Assembly: GCA_024404495.1 (NCBI GenBank)
Contig: JAKSPT010000014.1
Location: 1-63,761 of the forward strand
Reading direction: 5' to 3'
Length of the DNA stretch: 63,761 bases
From: Lachnospiraceae bacterium
Lineage (GTDB): Bacteria > Bacillota > Clostridia > Oscillospirales > CAG-272
Below the pieces are notes generated by a model, which was not told the DNA's origin, did not search any database, and worked only from the letters and a program-made list of their open reading frames with translations. Shown in pieces: positions 54,740 through 63,761 of the stretch (the stretch's first letter is position 1; the number at the start of each line of letters is the position of its first letter). A program made the translations under genes and the position numbers.

Positions 54740-54855
54740 TCATTCGACAGATAGTGATTATTATGGCTCTTTTTTATTTAAGGGAAAGGTTTCCCTTGAA
54801 TAAAAATGAATTTTTGATATTTGGTATTGAATTTTTTCCGTGAATGGAGAACAAG

Positions 54856-57180
54856 ATGATAGAAATAAAAAACATCTCGAAACAATATACAACCGTAAAC
54901 GGCTGTTTTACGGCTTTATCTGATATTTCAATAAAGTTTCCGAATAAGGGTCTCATTGCTCTGTACGGTGAAAACGGATGCGGGAAAACAACACTTTTAA
55001 ATCTGATTTCAACATTAGATACACAATATGAGGGCGATATTTTTTATAACGATCATAACTTGCGCTCCATAACCGAAAAGTACAGAAGGAATATTGTTTC
55101 CGTTGTGCTTCAGGAAAATTCCTTTGTCCCTTATTTGAACGTTTACGATAATATCAGCCTTTTTGCTGATGAAACGGAACGGACAAGGATCAATAATCGA
55201 TTAATGGATTTTGATATTCCCGAAAAAAGCGAGGAAAATCCCTCTTGTCTGAGCGGTGGTCAGAAGCAGCGCGTTTCAATCATTCGCGGACTGTCCAAAC
55301 CCGCAAAAGTTCTCCTTGTCGATGAACCGACGAGCAGTCTGAACGAACAGATGGAAAAAGAAGTGTTTGAAACTCTGAAAAAGCAGGCAAAGGACAAGCT
55401 TGTTATTCTTGTGTCTCATCGTATTTCCTTGATACGTCAATATGCTGATATGATCGTATGTATGGATAAAGGTACAATCCGTTCGGCGGAAAAAAACGAG
55501 TGTCCTGCCGTTATGTACAGCGGCAGTCAGATCGTAATTCCGGAAACACTTTCCGGTTCTGTTACGCTTGATGCGGATCGTATCAGAAGAATGATGGGAA
55601 ATGAGGATCAAATTACCATTCGTATGGGAACGGAAACCGAAGATCAATTTGAACCTGACTTTTCCGTTTGTTCCGAAGAAACAGCAGACAGAAATATTCA
55701 GTTTCCGGGAACATTAAAACGAAAAAGTGTTTTTGCATCTTTATCCTATTCCAAACGCGGTTGGATAGGGTTGTCCGTGCTGATCGTTGTTTTTGCTGCT
55801 TTTCTCGGCTTGCTGTGTTCATTTTCGAGTTTTAATAAATATTCATTTGCTGCAAGGTGTATTCGTGAAAATGTTTCTGGCTTAATAAACTATAAGGGAA
55901 CGCACATTTCAGATGATGTTCTCGGTCCATTTGATTATGAGAGATACGAGGACATGAAGAACCGACTTCATTCAAAAATGCTGATCCGAAAAGAATTCGA
56001 ATCACCTTTATGCTTGGATTTTGAGGAGGGCGCATTCTACTCAAATATTATACTTGGTTTAGCATATTGCCGCACAGAGGATATATCAATAATATATGGA
56101 CAATTTGCAGATGATTCTTCTGTAATGATTACTGATTATCTTGCCGACGGTTTGGTTTGTCTTGATAATGATTACGATTCTTATGATTCGATTTTAACGA
56201 TTGGTATTTCAATCGCCGGTGTGCATATGAATGTTCAGGGAATTGTTGATACTGATTACGAACAATATAAAACCATATATGATTCCGATGAATTCACAAT
56301 GACACAGAGATATATCGATTATCAGCAAGGTCAGTGGATTTACAAATCGATTTTTCTTCCGATACCGTCCGCAAATAGTGAAAAACCAATACCGTTTTTG
56401 ACAAGCGGTTATGGAGAAGAGCTTTTTTCGCTTAGGTTATTGGATCAAACAGATCCGTACTACGAAAAGGTTTCCACGATTGAAAACGGTTGTTTGGTAA
56501 GCCCCGCATTGTTTAGAACCTATTCGGAAGGAGAGTATATAAAGTATTTAGATGGATACTTAAATGTTGCCGGCTGCAAAGAAACAGAGGACGAAACGCA
56601 TGCAGTGTATATTTCTCCTGAAATATATGCATCAGTAATACAATCCCTCTTTGAAAACATTGATTGTATCTCTATTGACCTGAAGAACTCGGAAGAAGAA
56701 AAAACGCTTGAGCAATACGGAATGATGCACAACACATCGATGAGCGGCTATATCAATATTTGCGTAGACGTTATTACCGTATTACAGAGTATTTTTTACG
56801 TATTGTTACTTGTCTTACTTTTTGGCATAATAATATGTGCGGTGTCCTTAAATGGGAATTTGCTTTCGAGGGATAAGCATCTTATCGGGTTTATGCGAAT
56901 CGCAGGCTATGAAAAGAAGACAATCTTTTCAATCGATTTGTTGAAAATTGCTTTCATATCCGGTGCTGTACTTATTCTATCCGAAGGCGTGTTTTGGGGT
57001 TCTGTGTGGGGCATTAATTCTTTGCTTTCTCATTCAATAGGATATTCGATGGTGTTGTGTGAAATGAATGTGCTGTCGGTTGCCGTCATTATTGCCGTCG
57101 TTGTTTCGGCGTTTTCAATATCGTTATTACAAAACAATAAGTGCTTCAAGGCGCAAATTGTTGATTTGGTAAATAACTGA
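54856..57180 (+). CDS. Fused ABC transporter (ATPase-permease), antimicrobial-peptide type
   Basis: A single 774-residue chain. The N-terminal ATPase (about 1-225) has Walker A GENGCGKTT (38-46), signature LSGGQKQR and Walker B VLLVDEPTSSLNE. The C-terminal half is a MacB/FtsX-type permease with one helix near 300-322, a large extracellular loop and three helices near 635-760. Such proteins export or sense bacteriocins and lantibiotics. I start at ATG 54856 because GGAG is six bases before it, and not at 54844. The base composition is markedly more AT-rich than both neighbours, so recent transfer is likely. Confidence 0.85.
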   Translation: MIEIKNISKQYTTVNGCFTALSDISIKFPNKGLIALYGENGCGKTTLLNLISTLDTQYEGDIFYNDHNLRSITEKYRRNIVSVVLQENSFVPYLNVYDNISLFADETERTRINNRLMDFDIPEKSEENPSCLSGGQKQRVSIIRGLSKPAKVLLVDEPTSSLNEQMEKEVFETLKKQAKDKLVILVSHRISLIRQYADMIVCMDKGTIRSAEKNECPAVMYSGSQIVIPETLSGSVTLDADRIRRMMGNEDQITIRMGTETEDQFEPDFSVCSEETADRNIQFPGTLKRKSVFASLSYSKRGWIGLSVLIVVFAAFLGLLCSFSSFNKYSFAARCIRENVSGLINYKGTHISDDVLGPFDYERYEDMKNRLHSKMLIRKEFESPLCLDFEEGAFYSNIILGLAYCRTEDISIIYGQFADDSSVMITDYLADGLVCLDNDYDSYDSILTIGISIAGVHMNVQGIVDTDYEQYKTIYDSDEFTMTQRYIDYQQGQWIYKSIFLPIPSANSEKPIPFLTSGYGEELFSLRLLDQTDPYYEKVSTIENGCLVSPALFRTYSEGEYIKYLDGYLNVAGCKETEDETHAVYISPEIYASVIQSLFENIDCISIDLKNSEEEKTLEQYGMMHNTSMSGYINICVDVITVLQSIFYVLLLVLLFGIIICAVSLNGNLLSRDKHLIGFMRIAGYEKKTIFSIDLLKIAFISGAVLILSEGVFWGSVWGINSLLSHSIGYSMVLCEMNVLSVAVIIAVVVSAFSISLLQNNKCFKAQIVDLVNN

Positions 57181-61418: not shown

Positions 61419-61934
61419 ATGAAAGAACCGTTCAAGGGGCTGATCGCCGCCGCTGCCGCGGCGTTTATCGGCTATTCCGGAAAACTGCTTTTCCCCGTTG
61501 TCGTTCTCTGCGTTGTGATCTGCGTGGATTATATCACGGGAATGATCCGCGCTTATTACGAGGCGACGCTCTGCTCGAAAAGGGGCTTTCGCGGGATTTT
61601 CAAAAAACTCTGCTATTTTCTGGTGATCATCTGCGGGATGGTGTGCGACTTCCTGCTTTCCAAAGGACTTTCCGCGGTAGGGATCGGAACCGCGATGGAG
61701 GGGTTCGTGGCGGTGCTCGTGACCGTGTGGCTGACGATCAACGAGCTGCTCTCGATCCTCGAGAATCTGACGCTTGTCGGCGTTCCTCTGCCCGGTTTTC
61801 TGAAAAAAACCGTGAAGCGGATGCTCGTTTCGACCGAGCGCCGCGCCGATCCGGACGCGGAGGATGCCGAAGAACAGAAAAAAGATCCGCAGCTCCCGCC
61901 TGAACAAAAGGAGGAAGAACCGCGTGACTTATGA
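61419..61934 (+). CDS. Phage-type holin (Holin_4/TcdE-like)
   Basis: A 171-residue protein with three to four hydrophobic segments (about 8-50, 64-82, 92-115). CVDYITGMIRAYYE is the conserved stretch of the toxin-secretion/phage-lysis holin family, and the tail is acidic and charged. Holins form membrane pores that release endolysins or large toxins. The gene overlaps the next by 11 bases, a typical holin-endolysin pair. No capsid, tail or integrase genes are near, so this is a domesticated lysis cassette or part of a larger element beyond the window. Confidence 0.88.
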   Translation: MKEPFKGLIAAAAAAFIGYSGKLLFPVVVLCVVICVDYITGMIRAYYEATLCSKRGFRGIFKKLCYFLVIICGMVCDFLLSKGLSAVGIGTAMEGFVAVLVTVWLTINELLSILENLTLVGVPLPGFLKKTVKRMLVSTERRADPDAEDAEEQKKDPQLPPEQKEEEPRDL

Positions 61935-62727
61935 AAAAAACGCCGTCGCTTTCGCAGCGGCGGCAGGAAAGATCGCTTCGGAGTATGAAACCGTCTATGC
62001 CCTCGGAATGTTCGGCAGCCCGCTTTCTCTTTCCGCGATCGAGGGAAAGGCGCGGCAGTATCCGAAATGGTACACGGCGGAAAAGGTCGGCTTTCTGAAA
62101 GAACGGATGAACGCTTCTTCCCGCCCGGTCTTCGGGTTTGACTGCGTCTGCTTTCTGAAAGCGCTCTTCTGGGGGTGGAACGGGGATGCCGGAAAGGAAC
62201 ACGGCGGCGCGGTTTATCTCTCGAACGGCGTGGAGGATCTTGACGAATCGACCCTCTTTTCCCGGTGTGGTGCGGTCGGCAGTGACTTTTCCGACGTCGC
62301 GGTCGGGGAAGCGCTCTGGATGCCGGGGCATATCGGGCTGTATCTCGGCGATTCGCTCGCGGTCGAATGTACGCCTGCCTGGGAAAACGGCGTTCAGATC
62401 ACTTCGGTACGCAAAACCGTTTCCGGGTATTTCCGCCGTGACTGGCATAAGCACGGAAAACTGCCCTATCTTGACTATTCCACCGCCGCGGCAGCAGGAA
62501 CGGAAAGCGTCCGCATTGATCTTCCGATCCTGCAGAAGGGTGCCGTCGGCTATCCGGTCAGAACGCTCCAGCGCCTGCTCAACGCGCTCCTTTCCGCCGG
62601 TCTCGAAACCGACGGCAGCTTCGGCCCCGCTACCGAGGCGGTTCTCCGCGCCTATCAGGTGTCCGTCTCTCTCGAACCCGATGCCTCCTGCGGTCCCGCC
62701 ACCTGGGCAAGGCTGCTGAAGGGGTGA
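61924..62727 (+). CDS. Endolysin: NlpC/P60-like peptidase with peptidoglycan-binding domain
   Basis: The protein has 267 residues starting at GTG 61924 after AAAGGAGG. The N-terminal catalytic part has C74 in FGFDCVCFLK, H136 in WMPGHIGLYLG and ECTP following, consistent with a cysteine peptidase/amidase of the NlpC/CHAP class. The C-terminal half (about 195-267) is a PG_binding_1 domain (LQKGAVGYPVRTLQRLLNAL). There is no signal peptide, as expected for a holin-dependent enzyme. It ends about 190 bases before the inverted-repeat region and the ubiquitin-like gene. Confidence 0.87.
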   Translation: MTYEKNAVAFAAAAGKIASEYETVYALGMFGSPLSLSAIEGKARQYPKWYTAEKVGFLKERMNASSRPVFGFDCVCFLKALFWGWNGDAGKEHGGAVYLSNGVEDLDESTLFSRCGAVGSDFSDVAVGEALWMPGHIGLYLGDSLAVECTPAWENGVQITSVRKTVSGYFRRDWHKHGKLPYLDYSTAAAAGTESVRIDLPILQKGAVGYPVRTLQRLLNALLSAGLETDGSFGPATEAVLRAYQVSVSLEPDASCGPATWARLLKG

Positions 62728-62914
62728 GGAAGCGGGAAAAAGAAGAGAGGGCGTAAAAAAGTCCGACTTTTTGGACGGTGCTCTAAAGGACAGTCCTATG
62801 TAGGATACGGCGCAATCCGTTTGGGTTGTCTCATCTGGCAGCGAGCACAGAAAACTGATGGAAACGTTGCGGCTTGTAATCTGAAACAAAATCAGCCGGA
62901 AGCAGCGGCTGCAG
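62728..62914. other. Intergenic segment, partly repeat-like
   Basis: No gene is supported here. AAAAAGT-CCG-ACTTTTT at about 62755-62771 is a small hairpin and may act as a weak terminator for the endolysin gene. The stretch from about 62780 to 62890 looks like sequence that I associate with dispersed intergenic repeats of gut Clostridia, but I cannot verify this. Confidence 0.3.
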
Positions 62915-63190
62915 CGTAATTCTCATTATGTTGCAATTATCGGCGGTCTGACAATAAACAGTGTCCCGACAGATAAAAACGGGCGCGGTAAAAGAAGCCT
63001 TTGCTGATTTTCTGAAAAAGGGATCGGGAAAGGCTTTTTCGTGCTGATTTCATGAAGACAAAACCATGGGATTTCCGGCTTTTCACGGAAAAGTTCTTGA
63101 TTTTCTGCGCTTTCTGTGCTATAATACTTACGTATATTTGTATCATAGGCGTATTGTCGGGATATGATATACAACATAATGAGAATTACG
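62915..63190. repeat. 276-bp segment bounded by 19-bp perfect inverted repeats (candidate inverton)
   Basis: The left arm CGTAATTCTCATTATGTTG (62915-62933) and the right arm (63172-63190) are exact inverse complements. No flanking target duplication is visible outside them, and no transposase fits inside. The segment encloses a strong promoter (63097-63125) oriented toward the ubiquitin-like gene and a weak AAGCCTTT/AAAGGCTT hairpin. This is the layout of invertible promoter switches such as those of Clostridioides difficile. A MITE is the alternative. Confidence 0.72.
63097..63125 (+). promoter_or_regulatory. Sigma-A promoter inside the inverted-repeat segment
   Basis: TTGATT at 63097-63102, 17 bases and a perfect TATAAT at 63120-63125. 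Transcription would leave through the right repeat and produce a leader of about 200 bases before the gene at 63329. In the opposite orientation it would point at the endolysin gene in antisense. Confidence 0.88.
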
Positions 63191-63328
63191 TCGCAATAGA
63201 AGGAAGGTCGATGTCAGCTTTATGAGGATCATTAAATATAAATATTGCTGGGCATCGCCCGACCCTGCACCACCGATGATAACAAACTTATCGAACGGTT
63301 TCAAATATATTGTTTGGAGGAATGTAGA

Positions 63329-63761
63329 ATGAAAAAGAGAATCCTTAGTTTACTTCTCTGTTTCGTGCTGTGTCTTTCGCTGATGCCGATCAAGGCATTC
63401 GCGATGCAGGTTTTTGTCAAGGTTACGATTGCATCCGATAATAAAACAATTACTCTTGAAGTTGAGCCATCTGACACGATTGAAAACGTCAAAGCTAAGA
63501 TTCAGGATAAAGAGGGTATCCCTCCCGAAAGCCAGACTCTGACCTTTGACGGGAAAACACTGGAAGACAACAGGACATTAGCTGACTATAATATCCAGAA
63601 AGAAGCCACTCTGTTTTTGCAGATCAATGAACCCACCGGCTATTTCTTTTACATAGAGATAGACGGTCTGAGCAGCACGTCGGGCACGGACGCCGGTTCC
63701 GTGACCAAAGTCCCGTCGGATACACCGTCCTGCTTGCTTGAGAAGCCCGCAAACCTGACTA
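63329..63761 (+). CDS. Secreted ubiquitin-domain protein, 5' part
   Basis: The ATG at 63329 follows GGAGG by eight bases, and the frame is open to the window end (144 codons). Residues 1-25 are a signal peptide ([13 protein letters not shown], then ending KAFA), with predicted cleavage exactly before M26. Residues 26-100 read MQVFVKV, an insertion of three residues, then [20 protein letters not shown] and onward. By hand alignment about 54 of the first 72 ubiquitin residues are identical, including one block of 28. All seven lysines align. Isoleucine-44 is threonine, valine-70 glutamine, and the chain continues as INEPTGYFF instead of ending in diglycine. The last visible part (LLEKPANLT) may begin an InlB-type repeat. 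Eukaryote-derived transfer is likely. Confidence 0.9.

Follow-up and report, generated by a model that had tools for sequence, protein, structure and literature searches.

The stretch of DNA analysed here (the window) is a whole contig of 63,761 bases, and the gene of interest is cut by its right-hand end, so that the 3′ end of the gene lies beyond it (Table 1). The reading frame encodes a predicted signal peptide, ending in KAFA, that is joined directly to MQVFVK, the first residues of a ubiquitin domain; 119 residues follow the joint with the frame still open, so there is no free 76-residue mature form. Signal peptides were called by a hydrophobicity window and the A-x-A rule, and cleavage and export are predictions throughout. 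The 51-residue tail had no significant relative among the loci compared, and a search of 59 related genomes returned nothing significant besides the tail itself. A search of the window's own genome with the tail of the nearest long relative (L007) came back empty at E up to 10, which is uninformative by itself. Given the truncated gene and the lack of significant relatives for its tail, surface display is attributed to the window protein by extrapolation from relatives. The gene fragment has a GC content of 0.463 vs 0.573 for the window, which would suit a newcomer, though also the AT-rich beginning of a gene for an exported protein.

Upstream lie a phage-type holin gene and an overlapping gene for a peptidoglycan-binding protein, a lysis-cassette-like pair (61419-62727) that adjoins the exported-ubiquitin gene. 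Some 600 bases without a clear gene separate the peptidoglycan-binding gene from the ubiquitin gene and contain an inverted repeat, possibly a small mobile element or a regulatory structure; Rfam found nothing at the contig end. Elsewhere in the window, an ABC transporter gene with a GC content of 0.385 is possibly a recent arrival.

Table 1. Coordinates of the features discussed, in the window unless a locus is named
Feature	Position	Strand	Basis or remark
ABC transporter gene	54844-57180		GC 0.385 in 0.573 window
Phage-type holin gene (PF05105)	61419-61934		upstream of ubiquitin gene
Peptidoglycan-binding protein gene	61864-62727		upstream of ubiquitin gene; overlaps holin gene
24-nt inverted repeat, 92 percent complementary, 238 nt apart	62910-62933 and 63172-63195		upstream of ubiquitin gene
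Ribosome-binding site GGAGG, 8 nt before ATG	63316..63320	+	sequence
Open reading frame, ATG at 63329, open to contig end	63329-63760	+	sequence
Predicted Sec signal peptide, 25 residues, ends AFA	63329..63403	+	sequence; hydrophobic core and A-x-A heuristic
Ubiquitin domain from native Met1, 3-residue insertion in first hairpin	63404..63628	+	Pfam PF00240, alignment, AlphaFold2 model, PDB fold match
Start of C-terminal region, open at contig end, without diglycine	63629..63761	+	sequence; no significant relative
Small anchored protein, Clostridial surface operon	L008 14226-14771; L018 7440-7892; L022 5119-5742; L036 7455-7877; also L126-L133
Predicted exported ubiquitin protein, Ruminococcus albus 7 plasmid pRUMAL01	L109 5923-6663

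The ubiquitin domain

The window domain is a true eukaryotic-type ubiquitin. Its alignment with human ubiquitin has 54 identities over 69 aligned positions plus the hairpin insertion, includes an unbroken identical block of 28 residues and retains all seven lysines, and its score of 258 compares with a maximum of 53 in 2000 shuffles. The domain matches PF00240 with an E value of 6e-25 and 87.3 bits against a curated cut-off of 25.4, the first-ranked of 15 Pfam families matched at E up to 1, among which there was no ThiS or MoaD family; at E up to 0.001 it is the single PF00240 match in its own 2.7 Mb genome. The AlphaFold2 model of the protein has the ubiquitin beta-grasp fold, with mean pLDDT per ten residues of 88-95 over residues 1-70 (77.4 for the whole model, pTM 0.56), and superposes on 5ydr_A at 0.8 A with a TM of 0.94 by target length; the TM by query length is 0.60 because the tail is floppy. 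Apart from the query itself, the best 120 of 7960 protein-database matches to the 144-residue fragment look like polyubiquitins, and the named ones are eukaryotic. Changed residues are R42T, I44T, H68F, V70Q and R72N; the diglycine is absent and the chain goes on past ubiquitin, leaving no conjugation end.

A preliminary description of this DNA had counted about 54 ubiquitin matches by hand and had pointed out the A-x-A site exactly before MQVFVK, the perfect 28-residue block, the seven lysines, the I44T and V70Q changes, the hairpin insertion and the lack of a diglycine tail in a continuing chain. The alignment, the sequence and the signal-peptide heuristic bear it out on each of these points, with cleavage as a prediction, and the modelling that it proposed returned the ubiquitin fold.

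Bacteria have ubiquitin-like conjugation and defence systems of their own, known as BIL and Bub. None of the window protein, L025 and L047 matched a model in PADLOC 2.0.0 (2023), a set that may lack BIL/Bub models. The E2 profile PF00179 matched nothing in the window's genome or in any control genome, and the one ThiF-family E1-like protein in the window's genome belongs to a family also matched in 12 of 14 controls.

Related loci in other genomes

Searches with the PF00240 profile matched 4 of 146 relatives, 7 of 295 genomes of the same family, a thin distribution, 5 of 394 genomes of the same order and 5 of 398 genomes of a phylum sample, all in samples that overlap and each of which counts the window's own genome. 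In the phylum sample four of the five matches lay over the cut-off and two were left after the hits were read; L098, L099 and L100 were not exported ubiquitins on reading, and L137, a weak second match under the cut-off, did not read as one either. A signal-peptide-like stretch stands directly before the ubiquitin, as judged by eye, in L003, L004, L005, L055, L097, L134, L135, L136, L138, L139, L140 and L141. Identity to the window falls to 42-44 percent over some 60 residues in the most diverged of these copies, L004 and L005. Met1 has become Ile in L138 and is lost in L004 and L005, and the joint still falls within about one residue; the feature that has been kept is thus the position of the joint, not the methionine. 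L004 and L005 lie on separate contigs of one genome (G066), each of these two strongly diverged exported-type ubiquitins being fused to a YTVTIP/YTVTVP-type subunit, and the pair is a possible local expansion.

A scan of named prokaryote genomes with a ubiquitin-only alignment query, which held no signal peptide, yielded 183 loci via two conserved words covering sites 23-38, and the best-scoring 80 were examined. By a strict heuristic, a signal peptide ends exactly before ubiquitin Met1 in 70 of these best 80; in L024 and L048 the last residue before Met1 is threonine and the cut likely falls one residue earlier. The same predicted layout is present in 72 of the best 80 of 183 loci, from 16 phyla as counted from record titles and the origins listed with the tree. 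One of these phyla is archaeal, represented by two Methanotrichaceae bins. Many of the 72 are bins, whose labels can be wrong; isolates among the carriers include Pseudomonas protegens, Dyella, Saccharibacillus, Algibacter, Neptunomonas and Ruminococcus albus. Judging by names and record titles, the carriers include free-living organisms, and many come from guts and rumens. Among the remaining eight of the best 80, L081, a tandem polyubiquitin on a 4 kb contig of a Nitrospinota bin, is very likely eukaryotic DNA, and L037, L038, L046, L053, L060, L087 and L089 may be contaminants, truncations or non-exported forms. The one NCBIfam family matched by all 72 (of the best 80 of 183) is a eukaryotic Rad23 model, below its cut-off where shown, and no exported-ubiquitin model stands among the 25 of 51 matched families listed.

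No match was found in 50,697 phage records, and three of 72,556 plasmid records carry the gene. A viral collection gave seven loci, five of them of the signal-peptide form by eye. Pfam found bacterial-type anchors in three of the seven (L010, L012 and L016), and L011 shares their sequence end and hence the anchor type. Neighbour families common to loci of different phyla were all common ones and nothing specific, with an ABC-transporter-type cluster in eight loci and an SDR-type cluster in five (named by eye).

Tails and proposed modes of display

Pfam was run on the 72 proteins (of the best 80 of 183), counted from Met1. Their tails matched Autotransporter in 13 cases, SLH in 7, the T9SS sorting domain in 4 and IPTL-CTERM in 3, with InlB-type repeats in 7 and GLUG in 6. 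The first four are anchor families and account for at most 27 of the 72 tails, so that in most of the set the signal peptide is the sole basis for proposing display; any anchor in the remainder is of an unrecognised kind, and a few of the proteins are cut by contig ends. LPXTG-like ends were seen by eye in L018, L020 and L082. The full-length relative L007, from the window's own family, has InlB-type repeats and no recognised anchor, and on Pseudoalteromonas megaplasmids ubiquitin fronts proteins annotated as Ig-like or tandem-95 repeat proteins, in CDSs of 8.2 and 9.3 kb.

At the short end, 13 of the 72 proteins (of the best 80 of 183) measure 128 residues or less from Met1 to their end. L025, L058, L068 and L075 are ubiquitin alone; the other short forms have a tail of up to some 56 residues, hydrophobic by eye in seven (L023, L045, L054, L067, L078, L080 and L094). 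Because these 13 proteins hold little more than ubiquitin, ubiquitin itself is likely the cargo, and the tail would be a local means of display.

In the Clostridial loci L008, L018, L022 and L036 a gene for a small anchored protein (Table 1) stands upstream of the ubiquitin gene, with an adhesin gene between the two in L008. The anchored protein ends in a PMNGANVET- or PLNGAD-like motif and is found near secreted subunits, often of the YTVTIP type, with or without an N-terminal ubiquitin. These anchored proteins had no Pfam match over the cut-off, and two of their neighbours show weak similarity to spore coat protein U. Homologues were matched in 13 of 146 relatives, the query genome included; eight of their regions were examined, the homologue was located in seven, and in all seven the next gene on the same strand encodes a secreted-looking protein without N-terminal ubiquitin. 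Since homologues of the anchored protein elsewhere precede secreted-looking proteins that lack ubiquitin, ubiquitin appears in some Clostridia to be an optional front piece on an existing surface system.

Constraint on the domain and its faces

The ubiquitin domain is under purifying selection in the relatives. In 16 of 17 pairs, which are not all independent, the tail had a higher dN than the ubiquitin, and ubiquitin dN/dS was 0 to 0.24 in 14 of 17 pairs with computable dS. The exception is the Pseudomonas pair L077/L088, in which the dN of ubiquitin (0.103) exceeds that of the autotransporter tail (0.044); the tail of L077 is also shorter.

We grouped sites into the core, the Ile44 face and the F4 face by assignments that follow the ubiquitin structure literature. 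In the 72 loci (of the best 80 of 183) identity to human ubiquitin was 0.72 on the Ile44/E1 face, 0.86 on the general surface and 0.95 in the F4 patch; in the 13 Bacillota loci found by profile, window included, the values were 0.43, 0.63 and 0.77. The lower identity of the Ile44/E1 face persists when the search-word sites 23-38 are left out (p 0.019 and 0.0035). Among 16 disjoint pairs, hand-chosen and not all close, with gaps counted as differences, 57 of 192 cells differ on this face vs 69 of 640 elsewhere on the surface (p 0.00015 by permutation of sites, with sites from 71 onward excluded). The Ile44/E1 face is the fastest-changing surface in the bacterial copies. Both glycines are kept in 7 of the 72 (of the best 80 of 183), leaving 65 without the diglycine, and in none of the 13 found by profile; all seven lysines are kept in 53 of the 72 and in 4 of the 13.

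Over sites 1-69 of eight eukaryotic ubiquitins we counted no change on the Ile44/E1 face, two in the core and 19 elsewhere on the surface. The bacterial pattern of constraint is therefore the reverse of the eukaryotic one, as the Ile44/E1 face and the diglycine move in bacteria whereas the face is unchanged in the eight eukaryotic ubiquitins. The F4 patch, tried as a new binding face, gave p 0.02 to 0.07 for identity and p 0.09 and 0.15 for pair differences, which is suggestive only, and we make no claim for it.

Discussion

The secreted ubiquitin of Bacteroides fragilis, BfUbb (PMC3352274, PMC5705921), can act as a toxin on other bacteria, and the paper on this activity treats true ubiquitin in bacteria as a rarity, B. 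fragilis being called 'one of a few bacteria' (PMC5705921). Sensitivity to BfUbb is said, in a second-hand account (PMC12396204), to be decided by a tyrosine of a peptidyl-prolyl isomerase.

We favor, at a probability of about 0.5, a reading in which the window protein is exported, starts with ubiquitin and works as a displayed extracellular protein-binding module and not as a tag. The predicted sequence of events is export, cleavage at Met1 and folding outside the cell, by which ubiquitin would come to form the exposed, free N-terminus of a surface or secreted protein. Prokaryotes would have acquired eukaryotic ubiquitin through one or more transfers and retained the very stable fold at the N-terminus of such proteins, as their outermost unit; the face that the eukaryotic machinery uses would have been freed or re-tuned to fit a new partner. 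That partner would be something other than the eukaryotic machinery and, by the precedent of BfUbb, perhaps a protein of another bacterium rather than the ubiquitin enzymes of a host. The stable adhesin tip that the preliminary description had named as an alternative fits many of the relatives; for the window protein display is an extrapolation. As to the transfers, the preliminary description had proposed a tree as a check on its account, and the tree settled nothing either way: eukaryotic rows are mixed among the bacterial ones and 5 of 85 inner branches are starred. Because it is so poorly resolved and mixed, the number and direction of transfers cannot be read from it.

More tentatively, and at well under even odds, the proposal may be widened. 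In at least 16 prokaryotic phyla the tag function would have been removed and ubiquitin shown outside the cell on nearly every anchoring system, with the former recognition face serving as a specificity surface in cell-cell contacts, be it competition, kin sorting or adhesion, and with the B. fragilis toxin as one offshoot.

Ubiquitin could also be an inert scaffold that binds nothing, a small, soluble and very stable cap that helps secreted proteins to fold or protects their exposed N-terminus, and we regard this as unlikely. The domain does stand first in mature proteins whose tails are unrelated, its fold core is conserved while the eukaryotic recognition face is relaxed, and the Clostridial secreted subunits that follow anchored-protein homologues without ubiquitin make it look like an optional add-on; mere relaxation would account for the fast Ile44 face as well as a new binding role would. 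However, the 13 short forms among the 72 (of the best 80 of 183) leave next to nothing to cap (although L059, among these, may be a longer protein with a broken frame), and conservation of the surface outside the Ile44 face (0.86 in the 72, 0.63 in the 13) arguably goes beyond what a fold alone would need.

It is unlikely, in our estimate, that these proteins serve bacterial antagonism in the manner of BfUbb, as exported ubiquitins that inhibit competitors via an essential extracytoplasmic protein. They share with BfUbb the signal-peptide joint at Met1 and the lost conjugation end, ubiquitin-alone forms exist among them (the four listed above), and a fast-evolving face could be the outcome of a race between toxin and target; synthetic mature BfUbb inhibits sensitive strains (PMC5705921, in the part available). 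Yet many copies, unlike a diffusible toxin of 76 residues, are anchored or form part of long proteins, the dN/dS of the domain is well below 1, and no specific shared neighbour stood out as a candidate immunity gene.

The main proposal of the preliminary description, a host decoy that accepts chains on its lysines, fares worse, and we consider it very unlikely that the domain engages ubiquitin readers or enzymes of a host or protist. Its near-identity to eukaryotic ubiquitin, the gut and rumen origin of many carriers by their titles and the inhibition of in vitro ubiquitination by BfUbb (PMC3352274, in the part available) would suit such a role. The same architecture is found, however, in bacteria that look free-living by name and in two archaeal bins; the lysines meant to accept the chains are often lost in the more diverged copies; the Ile44 face and the diglycine are the least-held parts, with I44T, V70Q, R42T and R72N in the window domain itself; and being displayed on the outside is not in itself a route into the host cytosol. 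A face that eukaryotic readers use and that changes fastest in bacterial copies, together with the lost diglycine, therefore argues against a decoy for the host machinery and for a repurposed extracellular binding module.

That eukaryotic DNA was joined to a bacterial contig end, an artefact that the preliminary description had named as fatal to its account, is ruled out to within the slimmest of chances. For it one could cite the position at a contig end, the lower GC and the occurrence of contamination in such data, as in L081, the tandem polyubiquitin from a bacterial bin that is one of the best 80 of 183 hits. Against it stand the continuity of the window's ribosome site, signal peptide and tail with the ubiquitin, the presence of the same joint, followed by bacterial tails, in six further genomes of the family, and isolate or complete records that carry the layout, such as Pseudomonas protegens FD6 and the Ruminococcus albus 7 plasmid pRUMAL01.

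Should the class prove functional, extracellular ubiquitin would count among the surface parts that recur in bacteria, and the value of the ubiquitin sequence once conjugation is removed would become testable. The literature covered, with subscription papers and preprints mostly outside its scope, gave no account of a wider exported-ubiquitin class, only the BfUbb papers and papers that cite them, and the accessible parts of PMC4378268, PMC11354881, PMC1949818 and PMC12853789 hold no description of one; this silence is weak evidence of novelty.

Among known systems, eukaryotic ubiquitin (PF00240) shares with the window domain its sequence family, fold, seven lysines and Met1; the window domain differs in its predicted export, its N-terminal place in a longer protein, the hairpin insertion, the altered Ile44 face and the missing diglycine. 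The secreted ubiquitin of the nematode Globodera rostochiensis likewise consists of a signal peptide, ubiquitin and a C-terminal extension, but it is a eukaryotic effector with a 12-residue extension and, in the part of PMC5705921 available, no surface anchor described. WP_013483628.1 of Ruminococcus albus 7, a 'Ubiquitin family protein' encoded on plasmid pRUMAL01, has a signal-peptide-like start, ubiquitin and a tail of the secreted-subunit type; its tail is different from that of the window protein, and it is annotated with protein-ubiquitination GO terms that are likely wrong, so that at least one such protein can now be flagged as probably misannotated. Closest in kind is BfUbb, an exported eukaryotic-type ubiquitin whose mature form, like the one predicted here, starts at ubiquitin residue 1 and has no usable diglycine end. 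BfUbb is complete at 76 residues and occurs in the medium, whereas the window chain continues and many of its relatives have anchors or long repeat tails; if the class is functional, BfUbb gains a possible evolutionary setting among them.
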